NCBI RefSeq assembly: GCF_030270585.1
Contig: NZ_BSYI01000001.1
Location: 1-64,000, forward strand
Reading direction: 5' to 3'
Length of the DNA stretch: 64,000 nucleotides
Origin: Paralimibaculum aggregatum
GTDB taxonomy: Bacteria > Pseudomonadota > Alphaproteobacteria > Rhodobacterales > Rhodobacteraceae
The notes under the pieces were generated by a model, which was not told the DNA's origin, ran no database searches, and saw only the letters and a list, made by a program, of their open reading frames with translations. The translations under genes and the position numbers were made by a program. Of this stretch, positions 16,623-32,609 are shown in pieces (within the stretch, counting starts at the first letter, position 1; the number at the start of each line of letters is the position of its first letter).

Positions 16623-16953
16623 GCAACGACCCTCTTTCCCCCAAGGCAGGCCTTCACCGGCCAGTGTGACCCGAATCGCACTCGTTTCGCAAGGTGAACC
16701 TTCGCAGGATGCAAAGCCGCGCCACCGCCGGCCTGCCTGCCCGTCTGCCCGCCTGCCGGGCCGAGGCGCCCGCCCGTTCAGCCGATGTTAACCAAACCCC
16801 GCGATGGTTAATGCGCAACGCGGAGCACGGGCCGGAACCGGCCCGCTTCGGCCGCCAGGGGCGCGCCGGACCGCGGCGCCAGCGCCCCGCGCCTGCGGGG
16901 CGACCGCAACGTGCGCCCGGCTCGAATGGCCGGCGCCGGTCCGGGGGTGGACG
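16623..16953. other. 331-bp gene-free divergent promoter region before the PKS gene
   Basis: It separates the small membrane-protein gene (minus) from the PKS start (plus). It contains a short pyrimidine-rich degenerate repeat (16731-16760, CCTGCC/CGTCTGCC units) and the paired TTAACC boxes described separately. The ATG at 16804 opens in frame with the PKS but lies inside a TTAACC box and has no homologous residues after it, so I treat this stretch as leader. Confidence 0.5.
16787..16812. promoter_or_regulatory. Paired CtrA-like boxes upstream of the PKS gene
   Basis: GTTAACCA (16787-16794) and TGGTTAAT (16805-16812) form an inverted pair. The second, read on the minus strand, contains TTAACCAT, the known 8-mer CtrA half-site of Caulobacter. 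TTAA is rare in DNA this GC-rich. Binding by CtrA is inferred. Confidence 0.5.
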
Positions 16954-19900
16954 GTGTATCAGAACGAGCTCGATCCGACGGCAGATCAACCGGCTGCGGG
17001 GCACGACACGGACCGGGAGGCAGGATCGGGGCCTGCCGCCGCCCCGCTGCCCGCCGCGCGCGATGTGGCGATCCTCGGCCATGCCTGCCGGCTGCCGGGT
17101 GCCGCCGACCCGGCGGCGTTCTGGGAGATGCTGACGGCCGGGCGCTCGGCGATCGCACCGATGGAGGGCGCACGCTGGCCGGCTTCGCGCCATCTCCACC
17201 CCGATCCGCGCCGCCGCGGGCGCAGCTATACCGATGCCGCCGCGCTGGTCGACGGGATCTGGGCGTTCGACCCCGGCTTCTTCGGCTTCTCGATCCGCGA
17301 GGCCGAGCAGATGGACCCGCAGCAGCGCCTGCTGCTGATGACCGCGTGGGAGGCGATCGAGGATGCCGGCGTGCTGCCGGCGCGCCTCTCCGCGGCGCGC
17401 ACCGGGGTATTCGTCGGCTGCGCGGCGATGGACCACAGCCACGGCTTCCTCGAGCGGCCGGACTGCATCGACGCGCCGTTCATGACCGGCAACACCCTCA
17501 GCATCGTGGCCAACCGGCTCTCCCATGTGCTCGATCTCACGGGGCCCAGCTTCACGGTGGACACCGCCTGCTCGGCCTCGATGGTGGCGCTCGACCGGGC
17601 CGCGAAGGCGCTGGCCGCGGGGGAGATCGACTATGCGCTGGTCGGCGGCGTGCATGCCCTGCTCTCGCCGGCGCCCTTCGTCGGCTTCTCGCGGGCGGGG
17701 ATGCTGTCGCCGAGCGGGCGGCTCCGGGCCTTCGATGCGGAGGCCGACGGCTATGTCCGCGGCGAGGGCGCGGTGGCGCTGCTGCTCGGCCGGGGCAGCG
17801 CGGCGGAGGCGGCGGGCGACCGGATCCGCGGCCGGCTGCTCGCCACCGGGGTCAACAGCACCGGCCGGCAGGGCGGCATCACCCGTCCGGCAGCCGCGCG
17901 CCAGGCGGCGCTGATCGCCGGGACGGTGCGGGCAGCGGGGCTCACGGCCGCCGAGATCGCCTTCGTGGAGGCCCATGGCACCGGCACGCCGGTGGGCGAT
18001 CCGCAGGAGGCCGAAGCGATCGGCCTGGCGCTCGGCCAGGCCCGCGCAGCGCCGGTGCCGGTGGCGACGCTGAAGCCCAGTATCGGCCATCTGGAGCCGG
18101 CCTCGGGGCTGGCGGGGCTGCTGAAGGCAACGCTGGCGATGGAGCGGCGCGCGCTGCCGCCCTCGCTCGGATACGCGCGCGCCGGCCCCGGGGTCGACCC
18201 GGAGGCGCGCAATCTGCGCATCGTGGCCGAAGGCGCGCCGCTCGATCCGGCGGGCCGGGCCGCCGTGGTCAATGCCTTCGGTTTCGGCGGCGCCAACGCC
18301 TGCGCGGTGGTCGCCGCACCGAAACCGCGCCCCAGCGGCACAGCGGTGCCCGCGGCCCCCGGCGCGCTGGTGATCTCGGCCGCGACCGCGGCGGGGCTCG
18401 AGCGCCAGCTGGCGGCCTGGCGGCAGCGGCTGGCGGCGGCGGCCCCCGAGGAGGCGGCGGCGCTCGCCAATGCCGCGGCGCATCGGCGCGCGCGCCTCGC
18501 CCACCGCGCGGTGATCTTGCCCGGCGAGGGCGCGGAGCCCTATCCGCTCGCGGATCCCGGCGCCGTGATCCGCGGCCAGCTGCCGGCCAGCGGCGCGCGG
18601 ATCGCCTTCGCCTTCGCCGGCAACGGTGCGCAATACCCGGCGATGGGGGCGCATCTCTACCGCTCCGATCCGGTCTATCGCCGGGCCTTCGATGCGGTGG
18701 CCGAGCGCTTCGCCGCCATCGATCCGCTGCAGGACCCGCGCGGGCTCGCCGATGCCCCGGCGGAGGCGCTGCGCGACGCCCGCCGCGCGCAGCCGGCGCT
18801 GTTCGCGCTGCAGGTCGCGCTCGTCGAAGCGCTGGCGGCGGCGGGGCTGCGCCCGCAGGCGGCGATCGGCCATTCGGTCGGCGAGGTGGCCGCGGCCTGG
18901 GCCGCCGGCGCGCTCGATCTCGCCACCGCGGTGCGCCTGATCGCCACCCGCGGCCCGCTTCTGAACGCGCTGCCGCCGGGCGGCATGCTGGCCCTGCGCG
19001 CAAGCCGCGACGAGGCCGAGGCGGCGATCGCCCGTTCCGGCATTCCCGGCCTCGCGCTGTCGGGGGACAATGCGCCGGAGGGCACCACCCTCTCCGGCGA
19101 CGCGGCAGCGATCGCCGCCTTCCGCCGCTTCGCCCGGGGCGCGCGGCTGGCGGCGCGGCCGCTCGACGTCGCCTATCCCTATCACAGCCCGGCGCTCGAG
19201 CCGCTGCGAGATCGCTTCTTCGCGGCGCTGGGCGAGATCCGCCCACGCCCTTCGGCGATCCCCCTGGCGGCCGCGACCGAGGGCGGGGCGGTGGCCGGCG
19301 AGGCGCTCGATCTCGGTTTCTGGTGGCGCAACGTGCGCGAGCCCGTCCGGTTTCGCGAGGCCGTGGCGGCGCTCGGGCGCGCGGGCTGCGGGATCTTCCT
19401 CGAGATCGGCCCGCGGCCGGTGCTGCGCGCCTATATCGCGGACACGCTCGCCGCCGAGGGCCGCCCGGCCGCGGTGCTCGCGAGCCTCGACATCCGCGGG
19501 CCGGCGGCGCGGGCCGGCGTCGAGCGGATCGTGGCGGAGGCGCTTGCCCATGGCTCCGCGATCGACGAGGCCCGCGTCTTCGGCCCGGCCGCCCCGCTCC
19601 GTGCCGCGCCGCCGCCGACGCAGTGGGAGCTGAGGACCTGCCGCGCCATCCCGCGCGAGCCGGCATGCGACCATCCGCTGCTCGGAGCGCCGACGGGCCC
19701 CCATTGCTGGGAGACGCCGGTCGATGCCGCGCTGCATCCCTGGCTCGCCGCGCATCTCGTCGAGGGCCGTGCGACCATGCCGGCGGCGGCCTTCTCCGAG
19801 ATCGCCCTGGTGGCGGCGGAGGCGGTGCATGGCACCGGGCGGGCGGAGGTCGCCGCGCTCGAGCTGCGCGCCGGGCTGGCCCTGGCCGAGGGCGAGAGCC

Positions 19901-22900
19901 GCCACCTGCGCTGCCGGGTAGAGGCCGCCGCCGCCATCGTCCTGATCGAGAGCCGCGGCGAAACCGGGGGCAGTCCGGAGGCCGGCGCGCCGCCCTCCTG
20001 GGTGCTGCATGCGCAGGCCAGCATCGCCCCGATCGGCGCCCGCCCCGCACCGCTCGGATGGCGCGCATCGGAGGCCGCCCGGAGCTGCGACGCGCCGGCA
20101 CTCTATGCCGCGCTGGAGGCGGACGGGCTGCGCTACGGCGCTCCCTTCCGGCGGGTCTCCAGCCTCGCATTCGCCGGCAGGGAGGGGCTGGTGCGGCTCA
20201 CCGGCGACCCGCGCAGCGCGGCGTTCTCCGGCCACCGGTTCGACCCCGGCGCGCTGGATGCGGCCTTTCAGGCGCTGCACCCGATCATCGCGGCGGCACT
20301 GCCCGAGGAGGCGCTGGCCGGCGATCTGCTCCTGCCGCGGCGGATCGGCCGGCTGCGGCCGGGCGCCGGCACGGATCCGGTCGCCGCGGAGCTTCGCCTC
20401 GATCATGTCTCCCCGGAGGCGGTGACGGCGGATGTCGTGCTGCTCGATGCGGCCGGGCGGGCGGTGCTGCGCGTCGACGGCCTCGGGCTCGACCGCGTGG
20501 CCCGGGCCGGTCCGGCGGCCAGCCGCTTCTGGACCGTCGGCGAAGTGCCGGTTGCCCCGCCTGCCCCGCCTGGCCCAGAGGTGCTGCGCGGCGCGGTCGC
20601 CGCCGCCCTCGCGGCAGAGGTGCGGGAGGAGGCAGACGAGGGCCGGCTGCTGCTGGATGCGCTCGCCCGCAGGATCGCCTGGGAGCGGCTCCCGCCGCGC
20701 GCCTCGGGCACCGAGGATGCGCTGGCGGCCAGGCTCCGCGCCGCGCTTGCGGAGGACGGCGCCGTTCCCGGCACCGGGTCCTGTCCCTATCCGCCGCGAG
20801 CCGAGCTGATCGCGGCACTGCTCGCCCTCGCGCCGGAGGATGCGCCGCGCCTGCGCCGCGTGCTCGATCTCGAGCGCCGGCTCGCCGATCCGGCCGCGGC
20901 GCCGCTGGACCTGCCGACCAGCGAGACCGGCTGCCCTGCCGCGCGCGCCGCCGCAGCCGCAACGGAGGCCGCGGCAGCGGCGCTGATCGGCGCATGGCCG
21001 GAAGCCGGGCGGCGGCGCATTCTGCTGCTTGGAGACGCGCCCGCGGCCTTGCGCCGTGCGCTCGGGGCCGCGCCGGGCATCGCCTCGATCCGCGAGATCG
21101 ATCCGGAGCGGGAGGGTGCGCTTGAGGCGTTCCGGGCTGCGGGGCCGGCCGATATCGCGGTCGCGCCGCAGGGGCTCGGCACGGTCGACCGGGTCTGGTT
21201 GGCGCGCCTTGCGGCGGCGCTCGTGCCGGGCGCCGCGCTGCTGGTCTTCGCGCCCGGCCGGGATCTCCTGCAGGCGGTGGTGGCGCCCGCTTCGCCGGTG
21301 GCGGCGGACGCCGCCGGGCTTTGCGCGCGGCTGACGGAGGCCGGCTTCGCGGTGACCGAGCCGCTGCCCCTCGGCGGCCTCGCGGACGGGGTGCTGATCG
21401 TCGCCGCTGCGCCCGGCGCGGCAGCCGGCACCGATACGCCGGCCGAGCCCCCCGCGGTCGCGCTCGAGGCACCGCCCGGAGATGCTCTCGCCGCCGCGCT
21501 TGCCGCCGCCTGCCGGATCGATCCGCTGGCGCCGGAGCGGGTGGTCGTCCTGCCGCCGCGCGCCGCGGATGCCGCGGGGCTCGCGGCCGATCTGGGCGCC
21601 GTGCGCGCCGCGCTGTCGGCATCCGGTCGGCGGCTCTGGCTGGTGCTGGAGACCACGGGCGACGCAGATCCGAGGAGCGAGGCGATCGCGGCGCTGCTCC
21701 GGGTGCTGGCCAACGAGCAGCCGGAGGCCGGGAGGCGGCTGCTCCGCCTCGCGCCCGGGCTCGACGGCGCGGATGCCGCCCGCCGCATCGCGGCGATCAT
21801 CGCCGATCCGCCGGACGAGCACGAGCTCACGCTGCGGGCGGGGATGCTGACGGCGCCCCGGCTCCTGCCCGCCCCGGACCTTGCCATGCGCCCGACCATG
21901 CCGGGAGACGCACCGCGGCTGAGCCGCCTGGCGCTCCGCCGGCGCGGCGATCCGTCGAGCCTCGCCTGGACCACGGCCGCACGCCGCACCCCGGGGCCGC
22001 GCGAGGTGGAGATCGAGATTGCCGCCACGGGGCTGAACTTCCGCGACCTGATCTGGGCACAGGGCGGGCTGCCCGAGGCGCTCCTGGCACCGGGGCTCAC
22101 CGGTGCCTGCCTCGGCATGGAATGCGCCGGCCGGGTGGTTGCCGCCGGCGCGGAGGCCGGCATCGCGCCGGGCCAGCCGGTGGCGGCGATCGCCGCCGAT
22201 GCCTTCGCGAGCCATGCCTGCGCCCGGCGCGAGGCGGTGCTGACGCTGCCCGAGGGCATCGACCCCGTCCACGCCGCGGGCCTGCCGGTGGCCCTCTTCA
22301 CCGCCGACTGCGCGCTGACCGAGCTGGCCGGCCTCGCCGCGGGCGAGACCGTGCTGATCCATGGCGGCGCCGGCGGGGTCGGGCTGGCCGCGCTGCATCT
22401 CGCGCGGGCCCGCGGCGCCCGGGTGCTCGCCACCGCCGGCAGCGCCGACAAGCGGGCGCTTCTCACGGCCCTCGGGGCGGCGGCGGTGTTCGACAGCCGC
22501 AGCCTCGACTTTGCCGACCATGTGCGCGATGCGACGGCCGGGCGCGGGGCCGATGTGGTGCTCAACAGCCTGTCCGGCGAGGCGCTGCGCCGCTCGCTCG
22601 ACTGCCTCGCCCCGTTCGGCCGCTTCGTCGAGCTCGGCAAGCGCGATTTCCTCGAGAACACGCGCATCGCGCTCGGCAGCCTTTCGGGCAACCGGCGGTT
22701 CCTGGCGCTGGATGCCGACAGCCTGCTGGCGGACTGCCCGGAGGTCGCGGCGCGGGTCATGGCACGGCTCGGCGAGGCGCTGGCGGAGGGGCGCCTGCCG
22801 CCGCTGCCGGTGCAGCGCTTCGGCGCGGCGGATGTGGGCGCCGCCTTCCGGCTGATGCAGGGCGCCGGGCATCTGGGCAAGATCGTGGTCGAGGCGCCGC

Positions 22901-24174
22901 CCGCGCCGCGCCGCGGGCAGCCCGCGCCGGGCGGCACCTGGCTGATCGCCGGCGGGCTCGGCGGGCTCGGCCTCGCGATCGCCCGCCGCCTCGCGGCCCG
23001 CGGGGCGCGCCGGCTCTGGCTGGTCTCGCGCAGCGGTCGCCCCCGGCCCGGCGATGCAGCGGCCCTCGCCGCGCTCGAGGCGACGGGGGCAGAGATCCGC
23101 TGCCAGGCCACGGACATCGCCGACCCCGCCGCGGCGGCAGAGCTTGTCGACCGCGTCGCGGCGGAGGGTCCGCTCGAGGGCGTCATCCATGCCGCGATGG
23201 TGCTGCGCGACGGCGCCTTCGCGGCGCAATCCGCGGAGGACGACCGCGCGGTGCTCGCACCGAAGCTCGACGGCGCCCGGCATCTCGACCGGCTGACCCG
23301 CGCGCTGGCACCGCGTTGGTTCGTCCTGCTCGGCTCGGCCGCGGCGGAGCTCGGCAATCCCGGTCAGGGCGCCTATGCCGCGGCGAACGCAGCGCTCGGC
23401 GCAATCGCGCGGGGTCGCCGCGCCGCGGGGCTGCCGGGCCTCGCCGTCGCGCTCGGGCCGGTGGCCGATGCCGGCCATCTCGCCCATGCGCCGGAGCTGC
23501 GCGCCCGCATGGCGCAGGCGCTGGGCCCGGGGGTGATGCCGGCGGCGGCCATGCTTGACGATCTCGGCCGGCTGCTCGACGATCCGGCGCCGCCGCCGGA
23601 GGTCCTGCTCGCGCCGCTGCCCTGGGGCCGCCTCGCGGCGCGCCTGCCGGCGCTTTCGGCGCCCCGCTTCGCGCATGTGGTGCCCGCGGGCAACGCGGCG
23701 ACCAGCCAGGCCCCGCTCGCGGAGACGCTTGCGGGATTGCCGGAGGCCGAGGCGCTCGCCCGCCTCGCCGCGGCGCTTGGCGAGGCGCTGGCATCGGTCC
23801 TGCGCCAGCCCGAGGAGGCGCTCGACCCGCACCGCACGCTGCTCGATCTCGGGCTCGACAGCCTGATGTCGGTGGATCTGAAGCTGGCGATCGAGGCGCG
23901 CCTCGGGGCCTCCCTGCCCACCCTGCATCTCGGCGAGGACACGACCATCGCCGATCTCGCGCGGCAGCTGCTCGCCGGTCTGCGCGCTGGCGAGACGGGC
24001 GCGGACAGCGCCACCAGGCCGGGCGACGGCGCCCCGGCCGATGCCACCATGGAGCGGCTGATCCGCCAGCATGTGGCCACGAGGGACGACGCCCTGCGCC
24101 CGGAGACCGCATCGCGCCTTCGCGCCGCCGCGGCGAAGGATGTCCGCAACGCCGCGGCGGAGCCCGCCCGATGA
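16954..24174 (+). CDS. rkpA: Highly reducing type I polyketide/fatty acid synthase, RkpA-like (KS-AT-DH-X-ER-KR-ACP)
   Basis: Predicted 2406 aa from a GTG preceded by GGGGGTGG; an in-frame ATG at 16804 would add 50 unrelated residues. KS (about 37-450) has catalytic Cys206 in DTACSAS, His341 in EAHGTGTP and His379 in GHLEP. AT (about 548-870) has Ser641 in GHSVGE, with YPYHS around His744 at the specificity site. DH (about 903-1180) has His934 in HLVEGRATMP and Asp1102 in DAAFQ. A 470-residue Ala-rich stretch follows with a methyltransferase-like position but no SAM motif. ER (about 1675-1985) has HGGAGGVGLAALHLA. KR (about 1993-2240) has Ser2128 and Tyr2141. The single ACP carries Ser2303 in LGLDSLMS. 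No thioesterase is present, so the chain must be released by another protein; the gene overlaps the oxoamine synthase gene by 4 bases. RkpA of Sinorhizobium is needed for capsule (K antigen). Confidence 0.92.
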   Translation: MYQNELDPTADQPAAGHDTDREAGSGPAAAPLPAARDVAILGHACRLPGAADPAAFWEMLTAGRSAIAPMEGARWPASRHLHPDPRRRGRSYTDAAALVDGIWAFDPGFFGFSIREAEQMDPQQRLLLMTAWEAIEDAGVLPARLSAARTGVFVGCAAMDHSHGFLERPDCIDAPFMTGNTLSIVANRLSHVLDLTGPSFTVDTACSASMVALDRAAKALAAGEIDYALVGGVHALLSPAPFVGFSRAGMLSPSGRLRAFDAEADGYVRGEGAVALLLGRGSAAEAAGDRIRGRLLATGVNSTGRQGGITRPAAARQAALIAGTVRAAGLTAAEIAFVEAHGTGTPVGDPQEAEAIGLALGQARAAPVPVATLKPSIGHLEPASGLAGLLKATLAMERRALPPSLGYARAGPGVDPEARNLRIVAEGAPLDPAGRAAVVNAFGFGGANACAVVAAPKPRPSGTAVPAAPGALVISAATAAGLERQLAAWRQRLAAAAPEEAAALANAAAHRRARLAHRAVILPGEGAEPYPLADPGAVIRGQLPASGARIAFAFAGNGAQYPAMGAHLYRSDPVYRRAFDAVAERFAAIDPLQDPRGLADAPAEALRDARRAQPALFALQVALVEALAAAGLRPQAAIGHSVGEVAAAWAAGALDLATAVRLIATRGPLLNALPPGGMLALRASRDEAEAAIARSGIPGLALSGDNAPEGTTLSGDAAAIAAFRRFARGARLAARPLDVAYPYHSPALEPLRDRFFAALGEIRPRPSAIPLAAATEGGAVAGEALDLGFWWRNVREPVRFREAVAALGRAGCGIFLEIGPRPVLRAYIADTLAAEGRPAAVLASLDIRGPAARAGVERIVAEALAHGSAIDEARVFGPAAPLRAAPPPTQWELRTCRAIPREPACDHPLLGAPTGPHCWETPVDAALHPWLAAHLVEGRATMPAAAFSEIALVAAEAVHGTGRAEVAALELRAGLALAEGESRHLRCRVEAAAAIVLIESRGETGGSPEAGAPPSWVLHAQASIAPIGARPAPLGWRASEAARSCDAPALYAALEADGLRYGAPFRRVSSLAFAGREGLVRLTGDPRSAAFSGHRFDPGALDAAFQALHPIIAAALPEEALAGDLLLPRRIGRLRPGAGTDPVAAELRLDHVSPEAVTADVVLLDAAGRAVLRVDGLGLDRVARAGPAASRFWTVGEVPVAPPAPPGPEVLRGAVAAALAAEVREEADEGRLLLDALARRIAWERLPPRASGTEDALAARLRAALAEDGAVPGTGSCPYPPRAELIAALLALAPEDAPRLRRVLDLERRLADPAAAPLDLPTSETGCPAARAAAAATEAAAAALIGAWPEAGRRRILLLGDAPAALRRALGAAPGIASIREIDPEREGALEAFRAAGPADIAVAPQGLGTVDRVWLARLAAALVPGAALLVFAPGRDLLQAVVAPASPVAADAAGLCARLTEAGFAVTEPLPLGGLADGVLIVAAAPGAAAGTDTPAEPPAVALEAPPGDALAAALAAACRIDPLAPERVVVLPPRAADAAGLAADLGAVRAALSASGRRLWLVLETTGDADPRSEAIAALLRVLANEQPEAGRRLLRLAPGLDGADAARRIAAIIADPPDEHELTLRAGMLTAPRLLPAPDLAMRPTMPGDAPRLSRLALRRRGDPSSLAWTTAARRTPGPREVEIEIAATGLNFRDLIWAQGGLPEALLAPGLTGACLGMECAGRVVAAGAEAGIAPGQPVAAIAADAFASHACARREAVLTLPEGIDPVHAAGLPVALFTADCALTELAGLAAGETVLIHGGAGGVGLAALHLARARGARVLATAGSADKRALLTALGAAAVFDSRSLDFADHVRDATAGRGADVVLNSLSGEALRRSLDCLAPFGRFVELGKRDFLENTRIALGSLSGNRRFLALDADSLLADCPEVAARVMARLGEALAEGRLPPLPVQRFGAADVGAAFRLMQGAGHLGKIVVEAPPAPRRGQPAPGGTWLIAGGLGGLGLAIARRLAARGARRLWLVSRSGRPRPGDAAALAALEATGAEIRCQATDIADPAAAAELVDRVAAEGPLEGVIHAAMVLRDGAFAAQSAEDDRAVLAPKLDGARHLDRLTRALAPRWFVLLGSAAAELGNPGQGAYAAANAALGAIARGRRAAGLPGLAVALGPVADAGHLAHAPELRARMAQALGPGVMPAAAMLDDLGRLLDDPAPPPEVLLAPLPWGRLAARLPALSAPRFAHVVPAGNAATSQAPLAETLAGLPEAEALARLAAALGEALASVLRQPEEALDPHRTLLDLGLDSLMSVDLKLAIEARLGASLPTLHLGEDTTIADLARQLLAGLRAGETGADSATRPGDGAPADATMERLIRQHVATRDDALRPETASRLRAAAAKDVRNAAAEPAR

Positions 24175-25484
24175 GCGGCAGGGCCGAGGGTGCGGCGCTG
24201 GTCGCCCGGCTGCGCGCTCAGGCGGCGGCGCGGCCCGCGCCGGGCCCTGCGGATGCTGCCGACACCACCCCCGCACCAGCGGGTGCCGACTATGATTTCG
24301 AGGATCTGCCGGAGCACCGCCCGATCCGTCTGCAGCTCGCCGCGCTCGAGTCGCTGGGGCTGGAGCACCCGTTCTACCGGCTGAACGAGAGCGGGCCCAC
24401 CACCGCTCCGGTGATCGAGGGGCGGCCGCAGCTCTCCTTCGCCAGCTACGACTATCTCGGCCTGAACGCACATCCCGAGCTGATCGCGGCGGCGCGGGAC
24501 GCGGTGGCGCGCTGGGGGGTCTCCGCCTCGGCCAGCCGGCTGGTCGGCGGCGAGCGGGCGCATCACCGCCAGCTCGAGGCGGCGCTCGCAAAGATGCAGG
24601 GCACGGAGGACTGCGTCGTCTTCGTCTCCGGCCATGCCACCAATGTCACCGGGATCGGCGCGCTGATGGGCCCGCAGGACCTGATCCTGCACGATGCGCT
24701 GGCGCACAACTCGGTCACCGTCGGCGCGCAGCTCTCCGGCGCCGCACGCCTGACCATGCCGCACAACGATCTCGACTGGCTCGAGGACAGCCTGGCCCGC
24801 CGGCGCGGCGATTTCCGGCACGTGCTGATCGCGGTGGAGGGGCTCTACTCGATGGATGGCGACATTCCCGACCTCGCCCGTCTGGTGGAGATCAAGCGCC
24901 GCCACGGGGCCTGGCTGATGGTCGACGAGGCGCATTCCCTCGGCGTGCTCGGCGCCACCGGCCGCGGGCTGGCGGAGCATTGCGGCGTGCCGCCCGCCGC
25001 GGTGGACATCTGGATGGGCACGCTCTCCAAGACGCTGGCCTCCTGCGGCGGCTACATCTGCGGGCAGGCGGCGCTCGTCCGGCACCTCAAGGCGCGCGCC
25101 TCGGGCTTCGTCTTCTCGGTGGCGCTCGCCGCGCCGCTGGCCGCCGCGGCCACCACCGCGCTGGCGCTGATGGCGCGAGAGCCGGAGCGGGTTGCGCGGC
25201 TCCAGGCGCGGGCCGCGCGCTTCCGCGACCGTGCGCGGGCGGCCGGGATCGACACCGGCCTCGGCCAGGGCTTCGCGGTGATGCCGGTGATGGTGGGCGA
25301 CAGCCTGCGCGCGCTGAGAGCCTCGGCCGCGCTCTTCGAACGGGGGATCTATGCCCTGCCCATCGTGCATCCCGCGGTGCCGGAGCGCCAGGCCCGGCTG
25401 CGCTTCTTCATCACCGCCGAGCACACCGAGGCGGAGATCGACCGCGCGGTGGCGGAGACGGCGGCGGCGCTCTCGGCGCTCTAG
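24171..25484 (+). CDS. rkpG: PLP-dependent alpha-oxoamine synthase (RkpG-like; KBL/ALAS/SPT family)
   Basis: Predicted 437 aa, ATG overlapping the PKS stop (ATGA). After a 60-residue Ala-rich lead, FASYDYLGLNAHPEL, SASASRLVGGERAHHRQLE, VSGHATNVT, HDALAHNS, MVDEAHSLGVLG and TLSKTLASCGGY (Lys287 expected to bind PLP) give an intact family core. The enzymes condense an acyl-CoA or acyl-ACP with an amino acid, losing CO2, to form an alpha-amino ketone. Coupled to a PKS without thioesterase, it most likely releases the chain from the ACP. This is the role known for Fum8 in fumonisin synthesis and proposed for RkpG. The amino acid used is not readable. Its TAG stop shares bases with the convergent SDR's stop (CTAG). 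Confidence 0.93.
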   Translation: MSGRAEGAALVARLRAQAAARPAPGPADAADTTPAPAGADYDFEDLPEHRPIRLQLAALESLGLEHPFYRLNESGPTTAPVIEGRPQLSFASYDYLGLNAHPELIAAARDAVARWGVSASASRLVGGERAHHRQLEAALAKMQGTEDCVVFVSGHATNVTGIGALMGPQDLILHDALAHNSVTVGAQLSGAARLTMPHNDLDWLEDSLARRRGDFRHVLIAVEGLYSMDGDIPDLARLVEIKRRHGAWLMVDEAHSLGVLGATGRGLAEHCGVPPAAVDIWMGTLSKTLASCGGYICGQAALVRHLKARASGFVFSVALAAPLAAAATTALALMAREPERVARLQARAARFRDRARAAGIDTGLGQGFAVMPVMVGDSLRALRASAALFERGIYALPIVHPAVPERQARLRFFITAEHTEAEIDRAVAETAAALSAL

Positions 25485-26266
25485 CGCTCCGCCTCCTCCG
25501 CCGCGATGCGCGCGGCGAAGCCCGCCGCCAGCCGGTCCGACAGCCCGGCCGGCAGGCAGCGATCCGCCCAGGAGAGGAACGCCAAGGCCCGCGGGAAGCT
25601 GACTACCGCGCGGCCGCGCGCGACACCCGTGAGGATGCGCAGGGCCGCCCGGTCCGCCGGCATCTCGAAGGGTCGGGCGCCGCGATGGCGCGCGGTCATC
25701 GGCGAGGTCACGAAACCCGGGCAGATCACCGTGACCCCCACCCCGTGCGGCCGCAGCGCGCCGCGCAGCGCCGTGCCATAGGCCCGCAGCCCCGCCTTGC
25801 TCGCGCCATAGGCCGCCATGTCGGGCAGCGGGCGCAGGGCGGCGAGCGAACTCATCAGCACCACGCGCCCGGCACCGCGCGCGCGCAGCGCCGGCAGCAG
25901 CGGGCTGACGGTGTTGATCGCGCCGATCAGGTTGGTCTCGACCACGCGGGCTGCATCCGCCCGGCTCTCCCAGCGGCCATCGGGCGCGGTGCCGCCGCTG
26001 ATCCCGGCATTGGCGATGAGGAGATCGACCGGCGCCCGCGCGTCGAAGCCGGTCAGCGTCCCGGCCAGCGGATCGGCGGCGCGGACATCGATGGCGGCGC
26101 ATTCCGCCGCACCGCCGGCGGCACGCACCCGTTCGGCAACGGCAGCCAGCCGCGCCTCGGACCGTGCGACCAGCAGCAGGCGCCGCCCCGGTGCGGCCAG
26201 CGCCCCGGCCAGGGCCGCGCCGATCCCCGACGAGGCGCCGGTGATGACGATGTTGCGCGGCTTCAT
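25481..26266 (-). CDS. rkpH: Short-chain dehydrogenase/reductase, RkpH-like, probable 3-keto reductase
   Basis: Predicted 261 aa. NADP-binding TGASSGIGAALAGAL (residues about 9-23), NAG in LLIANAGISGG, catalytic Ser in LMSSLAALRP and Tyr-x3-Lys in AAYGASKAGLRAYG are complete. A C-terminal hydrophobic/basic tail may attach it to the membrane. It shares its stop with the oxoamine synthase gene and follows the KpsS-like gene by 9 nt. Known: rkpH stands beside rkpG in Sinorhizobium, and ketosphinganine-type reductases are SDRs of this size. Inferred: it reduces the ketone left by the oxoamine synthase. Confidence 0.85.
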   Translation of the reverse strand: MKPRNIVITGASSGIGAALAGALAAPGRRLLLVARSEARLAAVAERVRAAGGAAECAAIDVRAADPLAGTLTGFDARAPVDLLIANAGISGGTAPDGRWESRADAARVVETNLIGAINTVSPLLPALRARGAGRVVLMSSLAALRPLPDMAAYGASKAGLRAYGTALRGALRPHGVGVTVICPGFVTSPMTARHRGARPFEMPADRAALRILTGVARGRAVVSFPRALAFLSWADRCLPAGLSDRLAAGFAARIAAEEAER

Positions 26267-26275
26267 CCCGCGCCC

Positions 26276-27496
26276 TCAGAACGGCGCCGGCGCGAGGATG
26301 CGCGCCGCGACGCCCCGGGCGCCGGGCTCGGCGCCGCTGCCGTCGAACCCGCCCGGCACCTGCACGGTGGCCGCGAGCATGGCGGCGAATGCCGCGACCA
26401 GCCCGTCCTCCGGCGGCTGCGGCGCCGACCAGAACCCGGCCAGCGGCCCGCGATGGGTCATGCCCGGCACGTCATAGACCGCCGCGCCGAGCGGGATCAC
26501 CGGCACGCCGGCCTGCAGCGCGCCGAGCCCCACGGTGGAGTTCACCGTCACCACGCCGGCAGCCGAGGCCAGCAGCCGCTCGAGATCGCCGCCGGCGAGA
26601 TAGAGCACCCGGCCGCTGACCCCGTGGCGCGCCGCCAGCCGCCGCACCCGCCGCGCCCAGAGCGCCAGCCCGTTGTCGAGCGGATGGCGCTTGACCAGCA
26701 GCAGCGCATTGCCCGGCGCATGGGCGGCGAAATCCGCGACGACGCGATCCAGCACCGCCGCGAGCCCGCCAGGCGGCCCGTCGCGCCGGATCTGGAAATC
26801 GGTCTCGAGCTGCAGCGGCAGGAGGAAGACCGGCCCCGCCGCGCCCAGCGCCCGTGCCATGCCGGCCCGCACCCGCCGCGCGGCCAGCGGCGCGCCGAGC
26901 GCCTTGCCGATCCAGCCGGCCCAGTCCGCGACAGGGCCATGCAGCGCATGGGTGCGGTAGCGCGGCCAGGCCGGCCGGCCGAGCAGGTTGGCGAGGTTCC
27001 ACGCCACATCCATCGCCGCATAGCTGGCGAAGGGCGCGGCGAAGCGCTGGGCCTCGACCGCGCCGGCAAAGCCCCGGATCCGCACCGGGCAGCGCGGGAT
27101 GCGCGAGCGCGCGCCCATGCCGCCGGGCTCCAGCGTCAGCCAGCCGGGGCGCAGATAGCCCTGCTCCACCACATGCACGCGCACCCCCGTCGCCTCGGCC
27201 TGCGCGATCGCCGCGCGGTGCCAGAACCGCCCGTCGCCGAGGCAGACGAGATCGCTCACCCGCTCGGCCGCGAGGCGCGCGCCGATCCAGCCCGCCCAGC
27301 CCTCCGGCCGGCCGCGATAGCGAAGCGCCGGGCCGCGCCAGAACAGCCGGTCCCCCGGGCAGAGCAGCACGCGCAGCACCTCCGCCCCCTCCGCCCGCAG
27401 CGCCGCCGCGAGCCGCAGGAAGAACCAGGAGGCCGGCCCCTGCAGCAGCATGATCCTGCGGCCTTCGCCGCTCCCTGTCCGGTTCCTGGTCGGCAT
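26276..27496 (-). CDS. KpsS/RkpJ-like capsule polysaccharide biosynthesis protein, copy 1
   Basis: Predicted 406 aa from MPTRNRTGSGEGRR, the first in-frame ATG after the divergent promoter. The body (MLLQGPASWFFLRLAAALRA, VHVVEQGYLRPGWLTLEPGG, LLLVKRHPLDNG, VVTVNSTVGLGALQAGVPVI) matches the capsule-synthesis family that includes KpsS, LipB and RkpJ. KpsC/KpsS build a beta-Kdo linker on the lipid anchor in E. coli-type capsules. Only a single-domain protein is present here, so linker chemistry may differ. It is clearly paralogous to the divergent gene 27595-28959 and leads into the SDR gene. Confidence 0.85.
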   Translation of the reverse strand: MPTRNRTGSGEGRRIMLLQGPASWFFLRLAAALRAEGAEVLRVLLCPGDRLFWRGPALRYRGRPEGWAGWIGARLAAERVSDLVCLGDGRFWHRAAIAQAEATGVRVHVVEQGYLRPGWLTLEPGGMGARSRIPRCPVRIRGFAGAVEAQRFAAPFASYAAMDVAWNLANLLGRPAWPRYRTHALHGPVADWAGWIGKALGAPLAARRVRAGMARALGAAGPVFLLPLQLETDFQIRRDGPPGGLAAVLDRVVADFAAHAPGNALLLVKRHPLDNGLALWARRVRRLAARHGVSGRVLYLAGGDLERLLASAAGVVTVNSTVGLGALQAGVPVIPLGAAVYDVPGMTHRGPLAGFWSAPQPPEDGLVAAFAAMLAATVQVPGGFDGSGAEPGARGVAARILAPAPF

Positions 27497-27505
27497 AGGC
27501 AGAGT

Positions 27506-27512
27506 GTTAACC
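27506..27512. promoter_or_regulatory. CtrA-like box between divergent KpsS-like genes
   Basis: GTTAACC in the 98-bp divergent promoter, 11 nt upstream of one ATG and 83 nt upstream of the other; a weaker GGTAAACC lies 8-15 nt further on. Binding factor inferred from the island-wide motif. Confidence 0.4.
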
Positions 27513-27594
27513 GATGAAGGGTAAACCGGAGGTAACGCCGGCCCGGATTTCGCGCCCGCGATCCGCTGCCCGGCCCGTCCGGAAGGAGCCCCGC

Positions 27595-28959
27595 ATGCGC
27601 CCGAGCCCGCCCCGCACCGTCCTGATGCTCCAGGGCCCTCCCTGCCGGTTCTGGCGCGAGCTCGGCGACGGGCTGCGCGCAGAGGGGTTTCGCGTGCTGC
27701 ATGTCGGCTTCTGCCTGGCCGATCTCGCGCTCTGGCGGCGGCGCGGGCAGCGGCTCTGGCGCGGCCGGCTGGCGGACTGGCCGGCGCATCTCTCGGCGCT
27801 GATCGCGGCCGAGGGGGTGACCGACATTCTCTATTATGCCGACCGGCTGCCCTATCACGCCGCGGCGATCGAGGTGGCCCGCGCCGCCGGCATCCGCGCC
27901 TGGGCGATCGAGAACGGCTATCTGCGGCCGGACTGGCTGACCATGGAGCCCGAGGCGATGGGGGCGCTGTCCCGCTTCCCGCGCGATCCGGCGGAGATCC
28001 GGCGCCTGGCCGGGGACGCCGCGGTGCCCGAGGCAACGCCGCGATACCGCCACGGTTTCGCCCGCGAGGCCGTCTCGGAGGTGGTGTTTCACCTCGCCAT
28101 GGTTCTGGGCCGGCCGATCTTTCCCAACTATATGGCGGACAAGCATTATCCCCCGCTGCTCGACTATCTGAGCTGGCTCCGGAAATGGAGCCTCGGGGGC
28201 GCCGCGGTGCGGGCGGCGGCGCGCGCCGAGGCGGCCTGCCGGCGGCGCGACTGGCCTTTCGTGCTGCTCGCCATGCAGCTGCAGAGCGACTACCAGATCC
28301 GCGCGTCCTCGCCCTATGGCTGCCTCTCGGAGATGCTGGAGGACGCCATCGCCTCCTTCGCCGCCCATGCGCCGGCGCGGCTTCGCCTCGTGGTCAAGCT
28401 GCACCCGATGGACAATGGCTGGGAGAACTGGCCCGCCCGCATCGCCCGGCTGGCCCGCGCCCATGGCGTGGCGGACCGGGTGCTGGCGATCGACGGCGGA
28501 TCGCTCGATCTCTTCCTAGAGCGTGCCGAGGGGGTGCTGACGGTCAACTCGACGGTCGGCATCCATGCGCTGCGCCGCGGCCGGCCGGTGCTGGCGCTCG
28601 GCGATGCGGTCTACGACATGCCGGGGCTCACGCATCAGGGCGGGCTCGGGCGGTTCTGGGCGCGGCCGGAGGCGCCGGAGCCGGAGCTGCGCGATGCCTT
28701 CCTCGCCGCGCTCGCCGACCGGATCCAGCTGCGCGGCTCGTTCTACGACCCGGCGGGGCGCGCGGCGGCGGTGGCGGAGATCGCCCGGCGTCTCGGCAAG
28801 CCCGAGCGCCACTGGCTGCTCTGCCGGCCGGTCGAGGCGCTCGGCCTCGCCGCGCAGGCCCGGCCCGGCGGTACCGCCGATGCGGCCACGGAGCCGGGCG
28901 ATCTCGGTCCGGCCGGCAGCCCGGCGCTCGCCCTCAGGCAGCAGAGGCAGATGGCCTGA
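27595..28959 (+). CDS. KpsS/RkpJ-like capsule polysaccharide biosynthesis protein, copy 2
   Basis: Predicted 454 aa; start MRPSPPRTVLMLQGP chosen for GGAAGGAG 6 nt upstream. Conserved blocks are LMLQGPPCRFWRELGDGL, AWAIENGYLRPDWLTMEP, LVVKLHPMDNGWENW and VLTVNSTVGIHALRRGRPV. It is longer than copy 1 mainly at the C-terminus. The set ENGYLRPDWLT, HP-x-DNG and VNSTVG is shared with copy 1 and with RkpJ/KpsS. Two copies could add successive linker sugars, act on two lipids, or form a heterodimer; nothing in the sequence decides. It stands alone on the plus strand. Confidence 0.85.
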   Translation: MRPSPPRTVLMLQGPPCRFWRELGDGLRAEGFRVLHVGFCLADLALWRRRGQRLWRGRLADWPAHLSALIAAEGVTDILYYADRLPYHAAAIEVARAAGIRAWAIENGYLRPDWLTMEPEAMGALSRFPRDPAEIRRLAGDAAVPEATPRYRHGFAREAVSEVVFHLAMVLGRPIFPNYMADKHYPPLLDYLSWLRKWSLGGAAVRAAARAEAACRRRDWPFVLLAMQLQSDYQIRASSPYGCLSEMLEDAIASFAAHAPARLRLVVKLHPMDNGWENWPARIARLARAHGVADRVLAIDGGSLDLFLERAEGVLTVNSTVGIHALRRGRPVLALGDAVYDMPGLTHQGGLGRFWARPEAPEPELRDAFLAALADRIQLRGSFYDPAGRAAAVAEIARRLGKPERHWLLCRPVEALGLAAQARPGGTADAATEPGDLGPAGSPALALRQQRQMA

Positions 28960-29040: not shown

Positions 29041-30198
29041 TCAGTTCACCACGAGATTGCCGATCACGGCGCCGGTCGTCACCGGCTGCAGAGCCAGCGA
29101 GACGATGCGGAAGATCTTCTCCAGCGAGTTCAGCTCGGAATTCGCCACATAGAGCGTGTCGCGGTGGCGGATCGGGAAGCGCTTGGCCAGCAACAGCCCG
29201 GATGGCTTGGAGAAATCCAGCCGGTAGACCACCGGCACCGGCTCCGCGCCATAGCCCGCGAGCCGCGCCCCCGGCACCTGCGGCATGCCGACCAGCACGG
29301 AAGGCGCCTCGTAGCGGATCACGAAGACCCCCGCCGCATCGGCCCGCGCATCGACCAGCCCGTTGGCCATGCCGAGCGCCTCGTCGAGCGAGAGCCGCGG
29401 CCGGTCGAAGCCGATCCTGGCGTTCTGCGCCACCGCGCCGAGCACCGAGAAATGCCGCGGCCGGTGCTCCACCGAGATCACGTCCGCCGGGTGCACCGCC
29501 ACGTTCTGCGCCGGCTCGGCGAGCAGCGCATCCATCTCCACCAGCGCGCTCGACTGCTTGCGGGTGAGGCGCAGCGCGCTCTCGTGGATCGGCTTGCTCA
29601 GCCCGCCGGCCGCCGCCACCATGTCGAGCACCCGCTCGCCGGTGCCGCTGAGCGGCACGCGCCCGCCGCCGGCCACCGCATCGCCGAGCACGGTGACCGA
29701 GGCGCTCGGCGAGCTGACCAGGCTGACCACCGCCTGCGGCTCGATCGCCTGGCCCTGCAGCGCCGCCTCGATCCGCCGCGCCGCCGCCTCCGGCGAGAGC
29801 CCGCGCACGCGGACATTGCCGCCATAGGGCACCCGGATCGTGCCATTGGCCGAGACGATCTGCTCGGGCAGCGCGCGGGCGCCGCCGCCGCCTTCGACCG
29901 AGCCGGAGAACAGCCCGCCGCCGGTGGCCTCGAACAGCATCACCTGCACCCGGTCGCCAGTGCGCAGGCGCCGCCCGTAGATCGCCGGGCCGCGCGCCAG
30001 CCGCGTGAGATCGTCGCCGAGCTCGACCGCGCCGAGGCGCCGGACGACCTCCGCATCGGTCTCGATCAGCTCGAAGCCGAGCGCCTCCGGCGCCGCCGCC
30101 TCGTCATACACATCGGCGGTCAGGGGGCCGGAGCGCGGAACGGCGGAACAGGCCGACGCCAGCAGGGCGCAGGCCAGGATGACAAGTCTGGTCGACAT
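29041..30198 (-). CDS. kpsD: Outer-membrane polysaccharide export lipoprotein (KpsD/Wza-like)
   Basis: Predicted 385 aa. The chosen start gives a lipoprotein signal, MSTRLVILACALLASACS, with the Cys of LASAC as acylation site. Next come a polysaccharide-export domain (YGRRLRTGDRVQVMLFEA), SLBB-type repeats (VTVLGDAVAGGGRVPLSGT; FSVLGAVAQNARIGF) and a C-terminal RHRDTLYVANSELN. OPX proteins form the outer-membrane channel for capsule and meet the KpsE-type protein in the periplasm. It is monocistronic, divergent from the 30313 gene across a promoter with two TTAACC boxes. Confidence 0.9.
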   Translation of the reverse strand: MSTRLVILACALLASACSAVPRSGPLTADVYDEAAAPEALGFELIETDAEVVRRLGAVELGDDLTRLARGPAIYGRRLRTGDRVQVMLFEATGGGLFSGSVEGGGGARALPEQIVSANGTIRVPYGGNVRVRGLSPEAAARRIEAALQGQAIEPQAVVSLVSSPSASVTVLGDAVAGGGRVPLSGTGERVLDMVAAAGGLSKPIHESALRLTRKQSSALVEMDALLAEPAQNVAVHPADVISVEHRPRHFSVLGAVAQNARIGFDRPRLSLDEALGMANGLVDARADAAGVFVIRYEAPSVLVGMPQVPGARLAGYGAEPVPVVYRLDFSKPSGLLLAKRFPIRHRDTLYVANSELNSLEKIFRIVSLALQPVTTGAVIGNLVVN

Positions 30199-30212
30199 GG
30201 GTTCCCCATTCA

Positions 30213-30312: not shown

Positions 30313-31368
30313 ATGCTGTTCAACATCGAGGCGGATTCGGGCTCCGAGATCGCCGGCTACCTGGTGCCGGACAGTTTTTCCGACACGCCGCGGCTCTGCC
30401 TCCATGCCGGCGGCGCGCTGCTCTGGCACGGCGAGGCCAGCGAGCCGCGCGCGGCGCTGGTGGCCGCCGGGCGCCACGCCACCGGGCGCTGCGGCTTCCG
30501 GATCGGGCCGGCCGAGGTGCCGGGGCTGGCCGCGCTCGCCGATCTCGAGCTGCGCGAGCCGGCCAGCGGGCTCTGCCTCTACCGCCGGGCGGGCGGGCGC
30601 CGGCTGGTCGGGCAGAGGATCTTCCGGCTGGAGACGCGGCTGCTTGCCGACAGCGGCTTCGACCGCGCCATGGAGCCGCATTTCCAAGCCTGGCACAGCC
30701 GCATCGAGCATTTCGGGGCGGAAACGATCAACCAGCTCTTCCTGCTCCACGGCATCGCCTCGAGCTATGCCAGCGGGCGGGTGCAGGTGCCGGCGCATCC
30801 CGCCCTCACCGACGGTTCGGTGACCGTGATGCTGCAGCTGCGCGACCCCTTCGAGGAGCTGGCCGAGCGCATCGCCGTGCTCGCCGGGGCGCGCGGGCCG
30901 CTGGCGCGGCATCTCACGGTGCGCGAACGGCTGGCGCTGCACGGCGCGGCGGCGGCGCTGGACGGCCTCGACCCGGGCTCGGCGCGCGCGGTGCGGCGGC
31001 TGTTCCGCCGGCTCGAGCCCGGGGTGGCGGCGGCGCTCTCCAACCCGCTGGCGCGCCAGCTCACCACCGCCAGCCCCGGCGATCTCTGCGCGCCCGCGGC
31101 GGTGGCGGCGGGGCTGCGCGCGCTGGCCGGTTTCGAGATCGTCTCGACCGGCGAGCTGCCCGGCTATTTCGAGGCCGCCGCGGCGGCGCTGCTCGAGCTG
31201 CCGCCGCCGGCGCCGATGCGCGACCCCCATGCCGCGGAAACGGCGGAGATCGCCGATGCCCTGGCCGGGATCTCCGCCGTGCAGGCGATGCTGGAATGCG
31301 ATCTCGAGATCTATGCCAGCGTCTCCGGCGTCTTCGACGGGCTGGCCAGCGGCACCAGCCAGGGCTGA
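30313..31368 (+). CDS. Capsule-island protein of unknown function
   Basis: Predicted 351 aa with GGGAGC 7 nt upstream of the ATG. The first 75 residues (IAGYLVPDSFSDTPRLCLHA ... ATGRCGFRIGP) form a compact beta-rich module. The middle (HSRIEHFGAETINQLFLLHG, SVTVMLQLRDPFEELAERI) faintly resembles the body of sulfotransferase-like proteins, but no P-loop is visible, so I do not assign it. There is no signal peptide or membrane helix, so it is probably cytoplasmic. Its last 58 bases overlap the convergent glycosyltransferase gene. Its position, with a shared TTAACC promoter with kpsD, implies a capsule role. Confidence 0.6.
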   Translation: MLFNIEADSGSEIAGYLVPDSFSDTPRLCLHAGGALLWHGEASEPRAALVAAGRHATGRCGFRIGPAEVPGLAALADLELREPASGLCLYRRAGGRRLVGQRIFRLETRLLADSGFDRAMEPHFQAWHSRIEHFGAETINQLFLLHGIASSYASGRVQVPAHPALTDGSVTVMLQLRDPFEELAERIAVLAGARGPLARHLTVRERLALHGAAAALDGLDPGSARAVRRLFRRLEPGVAAALSNPLARQLTTASPGDLCAPAAVAAGLRALAGFEIVSTGELPGYFEAAAAALLELPPPAPMRDPHAAETAEIADALAGISAVQAMLECDLEIYASVSGVFDGLASGTSQG

Positions 31369-32609
31369 GTGGCATCCGCCGCGGCGCTGAGCGGCGCCGA
31401 ATGGCGGAACAGCCGGTGATAGGCATCGACCATGCGGTCGAGCCCGATCGCGGCGCGCCGCTCCGCCAGCACCTCCGGCGCCGCCGCGCCGCCGCGCATG
31501 GTCAGCGCCGCCGCCATCGCCTCGACCAGCGCGCGCAGGTTCCGCGTCTCCCCGGTCTGGCTGAGCGCGGCGATCCGCGCGGGGCCGAGCGCGGCGACAT
31601 CCTCCGCCGCCTCGATCACCCGCACCCGCGGGCTCATCCGCCGCGCCTCGCGGGCATTGCCGACATCGGTGAGGATCATCGGACGGTCCGCCGCCAGCGC
31701 CTCGAGCACCACGTTGGAGCAGCCCTCCTGCAGCGTCGGCAGCAGCACGCAGTCCACCACCTCGCGGTAGAAGGCGGCCATGGCGTCGTGCGGCACATAG
31801 TCGACCCGGGTGATCCGCGCGCGCGCCGGCGAGGCCGCGATCAGCCGCTCGACATGCGCGCCATAGGCCTCCTCGCCCGGATTGCCGAGCAGCACGAGCT
31901 GGAAGCCCCGGTGGCGCTCGGCCAGCATCTCGGCGGCGCGGATCGCCAGCGGATGATGCTTCACCGGATGGAAGCTCGCCGGCATGGCGAAGACGAAGCG
32001 CCCCTCCGGCAGGCCGAGATCGGGCAGCGGCGCCGCCCCCTCCAGCCAGCCGAGATCGACGCCGTTGGGGATCAGCTCGATGCGGTCGGCGGGGCAGCCG
32101 GCCCGGCCGGCGAAATAGCTGCGCACGAATTCCGAGACGGCGGTCACGCGGTCGGCCTGCAGCACCTGCCGGGCATGATGGGCGAAGCCGGCATCGTCGA
32201 GCCAGGTGTAGACATTGTGCAGGGTGTAGAGCGTGAAGATGCCGAGCGCGCGCGCCGCCGCGAGGCCGAAGCTCGAATAGTGGTAGTGCAGCACCTCGAT
32301 CCCGTGCGCCGCCAGCGTCTCGACGAAGCGCGGCTCCTCGCGGTTGAGGATCACCGCGTGGTCCGGGCTCTCGAGCCGGCCGAGCATGGCGCCGGCGATG
32401 TTGTTCTCCACCAGCACGACGACGCGGCAGCCGCGCGCGCGATAGCCGCGATAGAGATTGAGCGCGACCTGCTCGAGCCCGCCCTTGTCGAAGGAGGGGA
32501 CGACGAGGCCGACGGACAGCGGCGGCGCAGCGCCTGTCGACGGGCCCGTCACCGGGTTCATCACAGGGTTCATCGCGGGCCTTTTCACGGGGCTCTTCAC
32601 GCGGCTCAT
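31311..32609 (-). CDS. Glycosyltransferase, GT4/GT1 family (GT-B fold)
   Basis: Predicted 432 aa. Following a proline-spaced lead (see repeat 32538-32609), VGLVVPSFDKGGLEQVALNL is a classic GT4 N-terminal motif. VTAVSEFVRSYF, RIELIPNGVDLGWLEG, FAMPASFHPVKHHPLAI and LLPTLQEGCSNVVLEALAADRP (E-x7-E nucleotide-sugar site) complete the fold. It transfers a sugar from a nucleotide donor during capsule repeat assembly in the cytoplasm; donor and acceptor are unknown. The ATG overlaps the preceding gene's stop by 4 bases, and the 3' end overlaps the 30313 gene by 58 bp. Confidence 0.88.
   Translation of the reverse strand: MSRVKSPVKRPAMNPVMNPVTGPSTGAAPPLSVGLVVPSFDKGGLEQVALNLYRGYRARGCRVVVLVENNIAGAMLGRLESPDHAVILNREEPRFVETLAAHGIEVLHYHYSSFGLAAARALGIFTLYTLHNVYTWLDDAGFAHHARQVLQADRVTAVSEFVRSYFAGRAGCPADRIELIPNGVDLGWLEGAAPLPDLGLPEGRFVFAMPASFHPVKHHPLAIRAAEMLAERHRGFQLVLLGNPGEEAYGAHVERLIAASPARARITRVDYVPHDAMAAFYREVVDCVLLPTLQEGCSNVVLEALAADRPMILTDVGNAREARRMSPRVRVIEAAEDVAALGPARIAALSQTGETRNLRALVEAMAAALTMRGGAAAPEVLAERRAAIGLDRMVDAYHRLFRHSAPLSAAADATQPWLVPLASPSKTPETLA
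32538..32609. repeat. Degenerate 12-bp tandem repeat encoding the GT4 N-terminus
   Basis: Six 12-bp units, for example CACCGGGTTCAT, CACAGGGTTCAT and CACGCGGCTCAT, encode (minus strand) a four-residue period ending in Pro: VKSP-VKRP-AMNP-VMNP-VTGP. Copy changes would keep frame. Confidence 0.7.

Follow-up and report, generated by a model that had tools for sequence, protein, structure and literature searches.

We analyzed a window of 64,000 nucleotides from Paralimibaculum aggregatum (contig NZ_BSYI01000001.1, positions 1 to 64,000), which carries a polyketide synthase (PKS) at the head of a capsule export island. The PKS gene, of the iterative type I, lies on the plus strand at 16804..24174 in its longest frame. 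An earlier note on this DNA had read it as a KS-AT-DH-ER-KR-ACP synthase without a thioesterase, and all six domains were recovered by Pfam (KS 17059-18516, AT 18607-19488, DH 19672-20514, ER 21994-22890, KR 22933-23469 and ACP 23776-23967, all on the plus strand), with a long stretch free of Pfam matches between DH and ER and roughly 100 residues following the ACP serine; a thioesterase was not detected by Pfam. The start proposed in that note, 16954, is in the right frame but is a later codon than the ATG of the longest frame (16804), and codon scoring favours 17065. The PKS stop is overlapped by 4 bp (ATGA) by the start of an alpha-oxoamine synthase (AOS) gene in the place of RkpG/WcbT (24171..25484, plus strand), the catalytic residues of which are kept. 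On the opposite strand to these two genes lie a short-chain dehydrogenase/reductase (SDR) in the place of RkpH/WcbP (25481..26266) and a KpsS-type transferase (paralogue a, 26276..27451), followed on the plus strand by a second KpsS-type transferase (paralogue b, 27514 or 27595 to 28959). All the genes that the earlier note had named were found. Both transferases have a Capsule_synth domain with QXXXD and ExGYLRP motifs, and the Asp of QXXXD is the nucleophile in KpsC (PMC10148158).

Beyond these genes, components of an ABC-type capsule exporter are spread over 29041-45029, including a KpsD-type outer-membrane export protein (29041..30198, minus strand; Poly_export, SLBB), two KpsE-type (BexC/CtrB/KpsE) inner-membrane proteins (38725..40035, plus; 43046..44368, minus), a KpsM-type ABC permease (42263..43036, minus) and a KpsT-type ABC ATPase of the polysaccharide-export kind (44376..45029, minus). 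Interspersed with them are a GT4-type glycosyltransferase (31311..32609, minus), a large protein with a GT4-type stretch (32606..35362, minus), a WecB-type UDP-GlcNAc 2-epimerase (35438..36616, minus) and a GT2-type glycosyltransferase with two matched stretches (39977..42238, minus). The Kps-type matches lie below the NCBIfam equivalog cut-offs (KpsM 88 of 300 bits; KpsE 154.5 and 134.5 of 437.5 bits), and the KpsT was recognised only as a polysaccharide-export-type ABC ATPase. The KpsM/KpsT/KpsE/KpsD set that marks group 2/3 ABC capsule systems is present in the window at sub-equivalog scores, and the two-module KpsC that belongs to such systems is absent from the window genome. The "full Kps export locus" of the earlier note is complete in gene content, but it occupies both strands, forms no single operon and scores below equivalog level. 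In the genome assembly (201 contigs, 98.7% complete), the two PF05159 genes, the one PKS matching at E <= 1e-60 and the two KpsE-type genes are all inside this island.

With its monomodular reducing type I PKS without thioesterase, an AOS adjoining the PKS, an SDR and a KpsS-family gene, the locus is of the known rkp-1/wcb kind by gene content. It is a variant with no KpsC, no sulfatase gene and a doubled KpsS; we call it a variant because the sulfatase-superfamily membrane protein of the module is missing, no RkpI/WcbQ-type sulfatase gene being found among the scanned window-island proteins (PF00884 has four matches elsewhere in the genome).

The role of the AOS as the off-loading partner of the PKS is supported by gene linkage and by one natural fusion. 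A scan of genome contigs with an AOS-alignment profile gave 568 relatives, and the locus figures below use the best 80 of these 568. In 77 of the 80 loci, a PKS homologue is located within 10 kb of the AOS, mostly directly upstream. The three loci without one are L099, L104 and L117 (L and G numbers denote loci and genomes), of which L099 and L117 are short contigs. In a phylum sample of 398 genomes, those with an AOS of 370 bits or more were counted as AOS+, and all 17 other AOS+ genomes have a PKS match within 1.5 kb of it; G499 (335 bits, also PKS-linked) was counted as AOS-, and G337 (296 bits) has a different KS-AOS megasynthase. In L164 (5835-13700), from a genome that is only 71% complete (G348), PKS and AOS are fused in one frame of 2622 aa, in which the AOS occupies residues 2203-2611 and is 49% identical to the window AOS. 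Such a fusion speaks directly for transfer of the chain from PKS to AOS. Sixty-six PKSs were aligned (the window's plus 65 that clustered together, drawn from named loci and G genomes), and all 66 have the same KS Cys and two His, AT Ser, DH His and Asp, KR Ser/Tyr/Asn and ACP Ser. Separately, a different megasynthase frame of 1938 aa with a KS and a C-terminal AOS domain was observed in L165 (1199-7012), which probably makes another natural product.

Residue counts for the AOS were made on 136 rows, of which 100 at >= 500 bits were taken as the family (L099, L104 and L117, the loci showing no PKS, among them), 34 below 455 bits as other AOSs, and two in between were left out. The lysine for pyridoxal phosphate (K287), D252, H255 and H179 are invariant in all 100 family rows. 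The family also has its own signature stretches, namely Y93, G127-E128-R129 and H179-N180; Y93 was found in 100/100 family rows vs 8/34 other AOSs, N180 in 100/100 vs 9/34, and E128 in 99/100 vs 6/34. The window AOS reaches no NCBIfam equivalog cut-off, that of BioF (8-amino-7-oxononanoate synthase) being missed at 366.2 of 426.45 bits, and the 22 members of one AOS set (A2) all match the same 11 NCBIfam models. A function as BioF in biotin synthesis was rejected in view of the PKS linkage, the PKS-AOS fusion and the family signatures. When the family profile was compared with solved structures, the nearest was a serine palmitoyltransferase at 325 bits, which we take to be that of Sphingobacterium, followed with a lead of only 4 bits by an AONS/KBL structure at 321 bits, presumably from Thermus, and by KBL 1fc4 at 312 bits. 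Serine would be a fair guess for the amino acid used. In addition, a genome of the window's family carries an AOS of the next-nearest group beside genes for inositol-1-phosphate synthase, an SDR and a cytidylyltransferase (L036, 10997-15687), perhaps another sphingolipid-like pathway.

Dedication of the PKS-AOS module to ABC-type capsule export is supported by its distribution among genomes. In the phylum sample, Capsule_synth (E <= 1e-10) was present in 15 of 18 AOS+ genomes and 51 of 380 AOS- genomes (Fisher p 2.5e-10). A strong KpsE match (E <= 1e-30) was found in 48 of 52 AOS+ genomes vs 6 of 139 AOS- genomes of a class sample, a comparison between samples that differ in make-up, the class sample alone giving 3/3 vs 6/139. 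We are confident that the lipid module is dedicated to the capsule and that its AOS off-loads the PKS.

The KpsS lineage of AOS-bearing genomes is separate from the KpsS of AOS- genomes. This was observed on a tree of 83 rows from AOS+ loci or genomes together with 24 AOS- genomes picked from those with Capsule_synth matches (107 of 108 distinct rows, one being too short). The AOS label changes 3 times on the tree, compared with a mean of 21.9 after shuffling, and none of 500 shuffles was as low; a more careful tree of 92 rows, with 15 near copies left out, also gave 3 changes (3-4 in bootstraps). The AOS+ part of the tree contains 82 AOS+ rows and 3 AOS- rows (SH-aLRT 94, not starred), and both window proteins are located in it, outside the KpsS lineage of genomes without this AOS. 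The split runs through a single genome in Pseudohalocynthiibacter G149, where the KpsS of the PKS locus (L050), the closest on the tree to the two from the window, falls in the AOS+ part and another KpsS (L158) in the AOS- part. The latter is the sole AOS+ row on that side and adjoins a two-module KpsC, which goes with this second KpsS. Seven further members of the window's family (G022, G264, G296, G354, G384, G410 and G413) lack such an AOS and have their KpsS on the AOS- side, so that kinship alone is insufficient to account for the split. Comparison with solved structures gave no significant relative of KpsS by single sequence and marginal matches by profile (E 0.024-0.054, to an N-acetylglucosaminyl transferase entry and KpsC).

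A second difference concerns KpsC. In the window genome, the two PF05159 genes are both single-domain, KpsS-type and unmatched by the KpsC model, and no KpsC was found. We then examined 43 AOS+ and 22 AOS- genomes with a two-module KpsC model. A two-module KpsC was present in 20 of the 22 AOS- genomes, the exceptions being L247 (C-terminal module alone, C-only) and L252 (match 244-686). The 43 AOS+ genomes comprised 25 with C-only KpsC, 14 with two modules, one with separate halves, one with the N-terminal module alone and two ambiguous cases (G346, fetched sequence incomplete; G183, match 186-691). For C-only vs two-module KpsC, the difference between AOS+ and AOS- genomes has a p of 5.9e-6. 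The reading of the earlier note gains from this, KpsC being missing from the window and cut down in many relatives. In E. coli, KpsC-C forms the beta-(2->7) link and KpsC-N the beta-(2->4) link between residues of 3-deoxy-D-manno-oct-2-ulosonic acid (Kdo). The capsule of S. meliloti 1021 is described as a beta-(2-7)-Kdo homopolymer (PMC5539429), which would fit a C-only KpsC machine. Among single loci, the C and N halves were seen on separate genes in L043 (1-1533) with L261 (G143), and the N half alone was found in L273 (G171). An apparent AOS-KpsC fusion in L040 was rejected, as the coordinates place the two in different frames.

A third group of observations comes from genomes without KpsS. 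Genome-level searches took in 49 genomes of the 80 loci, and no PF05159 match was found in 8 of these 49, one of which (L104) also has no PKS in its locus; some of the KpsS-less genomes are drafts or metagenome-assembled genomes. Five of them (L048 from Azorhizobium oxalatiphilum, L063, L079, L082 and L098) have KpsE- and KpsT-type genes in the PKS-AOS locus, and four of the five also KpsM, the gene row of L082 (Leeia oryzae) being PKS-AOS-KpsD-KpsM-KpsT-KpsE. Genome G200 of the phylum sample is alike, with no PF05159 match at 1e-10 and a KpsE-type match near its PKS-AOS (L171). Because Kps export genes accompany PKS-AOS in PF05159-less genomes, the enzymes of phospholipid-Kdo are not needed for the lipid module to serve export, and these loci argue against a mere helper role for a phospholipid anchor, unless unrelated priming enzymes exist. 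Large proteins of 470-611 aa adjoin the export genes in L082 (14988-18610) and L079 (15709-17118); apart from coiled coil, neither Pfam nor NCBIfam was informative for those of L082, nor was Pfam for the L079 one, and they are candidates for the missing priming step. Elsewhere, in L080 (Paenalcaligenes; 11664-12503), a DAHP/KdsA-type synthase gene (Pfam DAHP_synth_1) directly follows the AOS, which would fit a Kdo-based primer.

We propose that an rkp-1/wcb-kind lipid module heads an ABC-transporter capsule system in this island and that the long-chain base made by PKS, AOS and SDR is the acceptor of KpsS, a full statement whose chances we regard as evenly balanced. On its own ACP, the PKS would assemble a long, reduced acyl chain and, having no thioesterase, would pass it to the AOS. 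The AOS would join the chain to an amino acid in a decarboxylative condensation that yields a 2-amino-3-ketone, and the SDR would reduce this to an amino alcohol, the long-chain base. One KpsS-type enzyme may then add the first ulosonic acid, most likely beta-Kdo, to the long-chain base, and the second paralogue may carry out a further early step that is the job of KpsC elsewhere. The glycosyltransferases would lengthen the chain, and KpsM/T with KpsE/D would export the polymer, which the lipid would anchor. In this scheme we infer the product, the amino acid, the KpsS acceptor and the permanence of the lipid as anchor. Indirect support for the sphingoid-anchor idea, which stays unproven, comes from the separate KpsS lineage, the reduced KpsC and the loci without KpsS.

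Several observations weigh against this proposal. A phospholipid anchor for the poly-Kdo capsule of S. meliloti 1021 is stated in one paper (PMC7902896), cited in another (PMC5539429) and named in the title of Fraysse 2005, and rkpA affects the capsule of this same strain, which speaks against replacement of lyso-phosphatidylglycerol. The 14 AOS+ genomes that keep a two-module KpsC include four Halomonas/Vreelandella and three that group with them on the KpsS tree. Three AOS- rows fall in the AOS+ part of that tree, L181 (G494) inside it and L183 and L185 (G480 and G504) at its base; no PKS of this kind at E <= 1e-60 and no such AOS was found in these three genomes, and the KpsC of G494 is C-only. 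Moreover, a difference in sugar or linkage, rather than in lipid, could be what the KpsS lineage tracks. Family scores point the same way. The two window transferases miss the NCBIfam KpsS equivalog cut-off (163.3 and 182.3 of 600 bits), for which reason they are labelled KpsS-type here, and the AOS misses the serine palmitoyltransferase cut-offs (282.8 of 640 and 282.3 of 500 bits), its single-sequence scores ranking BioF best, then KBL-type models, then serine palmitoyltransferase.

Some of these points favour an arrangement in which the PKS-AOS lipid is an export carrier, adaptor or transporter ligand and the covalent anchor is the usual (lyso)phosphatidylglycerol-Kdo, with KpsS acting on the phospholipid. 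The reported anchor of S. meliloti 1021 and the two-module KpsC retained in 14 of 43 AOS+ genomes agree with it, as does a review that assigns to the rkp-1 products the synthesis and modification of a lipid carrier for secretion. It accords poorly with the division of KpsS by AOS presence, even inside one genome (G149), and with the five PKS-AOS loci that have Kps-type export genes in genomes without a PF05159-detectable KpsS/KpsC-family gene. We consider this arrangement unlikely, with a chance that is nevertheless appreciable.

It is also conceivable, at a somewhat smaller chance, that one KpsS paralogue moves another ulosonic acid, such as pseudaminic acid, in the repeat unit, which would be compatible with the proposed lipid acceptor for the other paralogue. 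In A. baumannii, a homologue 30% identical to the KpsS of E. coli acts as a pseudaminic acid transferase (PMC12887879), but both window paralogues belong to one KpsS lineage and both carry the QXXXD and ExGYLRP motifs.

The long-chain base may instead undergo remodelling into a phospholipid-like anchor, either by N-acylation or through an RkpI/WcbQ-type, LtaS-like enzyme that attaches a phospho-head group; a "phospholipid anchor" and a PKS-AOS origin would then no longer conflict. Genes that might serve this purpose occur in relatives. Of the 80 loci, 12 have sulfatase-superfamily genes within 10 kb, and such genes were also found in L033; one has a weak LtaS match, and since so few loci have one, a sulfatase gene is hardly defining for the rkp-1/wcb module. 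A sulfatase-annotated membrane protein is part of the wcb row, L033 and L075 have GNAT genes, and the PKS-AOS-SDR-Kps locus of L098 is flanked by genes for an LpxL-like acyltransferase and a cytochrome P450 (12053-14438), with related genes in L110. A conserved protein of about 380 aa (c31) is located downstream of the AOS in L063, L095, L078, L056 and L070; two members compared with NCBIfam were unmatched, as were two compared with Pfam, and one weak GNAT match was obtained. Acylation of the lipid or a phospho-head group is thus possible in relatives. Among the window proteins scanned, no acylation or phospho-head-group gene was detected, which counts against remodelling here, as does the fact that LtaS-type enzymes act outside the cytoplasm and KpsS inside it. 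We hold it to be improbable. Beside the AOS of L112, a PhyH-type hydroxylase gene was observed (11485-12390).

A secondary-metabolite module that adjoins the capsule genes by chance, for which the natural-product chemistry of PKS plus AOS and the other megasynthase in L165 might speak, is already disfavoured and scarcely credible in view of KpsE in 48/52 AOS+ vs 6/139 AOS- genomes, the recurrence of PKS-AOS-SDR-KpsS rows in loci of different genera, and the description of rkp-1 mutants as capsule-deficient.

Beyond this locus, we tentatively suggest, as something short of an even chance, that many alpha-, beta- and gammaproteobacteria use a second kind of capsule anchor, a polyketide-derived long-chain base (or its N-acylated form) that a KpsS lineage of its own glycosylates, that the alternating Kdo linker is often missing there (KpsC being cut to the beta-(2->7) module or lost), and that one branch without KpsS and KpsC glycosylates the same lipid otherwise. 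A lipid carrier or anchor as the rkp-1/wcb product has been put forward before in the literature; this analysis adds the coupling of the AOS to the PKS, the separate KpsS lineage, the reduced KpsC and the loci without KpsS. In the open-licence literature, no paper was found that links an oxoamine synthase or serine palmitoyltransferase with a PKS and capsule, and its available texts yielded no amino-lipid capsule anchor and no KpsS lineage tied to PKS-AOS. If a large lineage does use a polyketide-derived amino lipid, this would be a second anchor chemistry for ABC-exported capsules and a bacterial parallel to the fungal PKS-AOS sphinganine analogues, and would explain which product the rkp-1 and wcb genes have. 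Since KpsS is split, the anchor question lends itself to direct testing.

The surroundings of the island are ordinary on the PKS side, where PotF/PotG-type polyamine ABC transporter genes and a sarcosine oxidase alpha-type gene adjoin it (9134-11343 and 12536-15580). Just past the kpsT-type gene are two tRNA-Glu genes (45664-45854), possibly the insertion site of a horizontally acquired capsule island.

Among known systems, the E. coli group 2/3 capsules (KpsMTED, KpsS and KpsC) share the export genes and the KpsS family with the window, which differs in having no KpsC, KpsS proteins outside the lineage of AOS- genomes, and the added PKS-AOS-SDR module. Their (lyso)phosphatidylglycerol-Kdo is described as conserved in almost all ABC-exported capsules (PMC10148158), with Vi antigen as an exception (PMC12220298). 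The wcb and rkp clusters are homologous and both have a type I PKS (PMC3908369). The wcb operon is assigned to lipid carrier biosynthesis, probably of fatty acids (PMC11766843), and its row has an 8-amino-7-oxononanoate-synthase-like protein, the type I PKS WcbR, a sulfatase, an SDR and KpsS side by side (PMC4275268). The Burkholderia/Cobetia wcb operon thus resembles the window in its AOS-like protein, type I PKS, SDR and KpsS, and differs in its sulfatase, acetyltransferase and deacetylase genes, which are not among the scanned window-island proteins. The rkp-1 region is reported to make and modify a lipid carrier or anchor (PMC4881576, PMC3557214). Sinorhizobium rkp-1 (rkpA, G, H, I and J) likewise has a PKS/FAS-like synthase, an AOS, an SDR and a KpsS-like gene serving capsule. 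In the window, by contrast, there are two KpsS genes, one of which lies with the SDR on the strand opposite to the PKS; the export genes are in the same island, and a sulfatase-type gene was not found there. This comparison was made through the literature and L091 (Pararhizobium polonicum), whose row PKS-AOS-SDR-sulfatase-KpsS fits rkpA-G-H-I-J and so agrees with the equivalence to rkpA/G/H/J drawn in the earlier note. With serine palmitoyltransferase, the AOS shares the fold family, the catalytic residues and the nearest solved structure by family profile, and it differs in its sub-cut-off NCBIfam scores, its own family signatures and its presumed donor, the acyl-ACP of the PKS. In the fungal fumonisin-type pair Fum1/Fum8, a reducing PKS without thioesterase is off-loaded by an AOS. 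The likeness of the window to this pair is one of working only, an analogy, and the product here would be a capsule-associated lipid.

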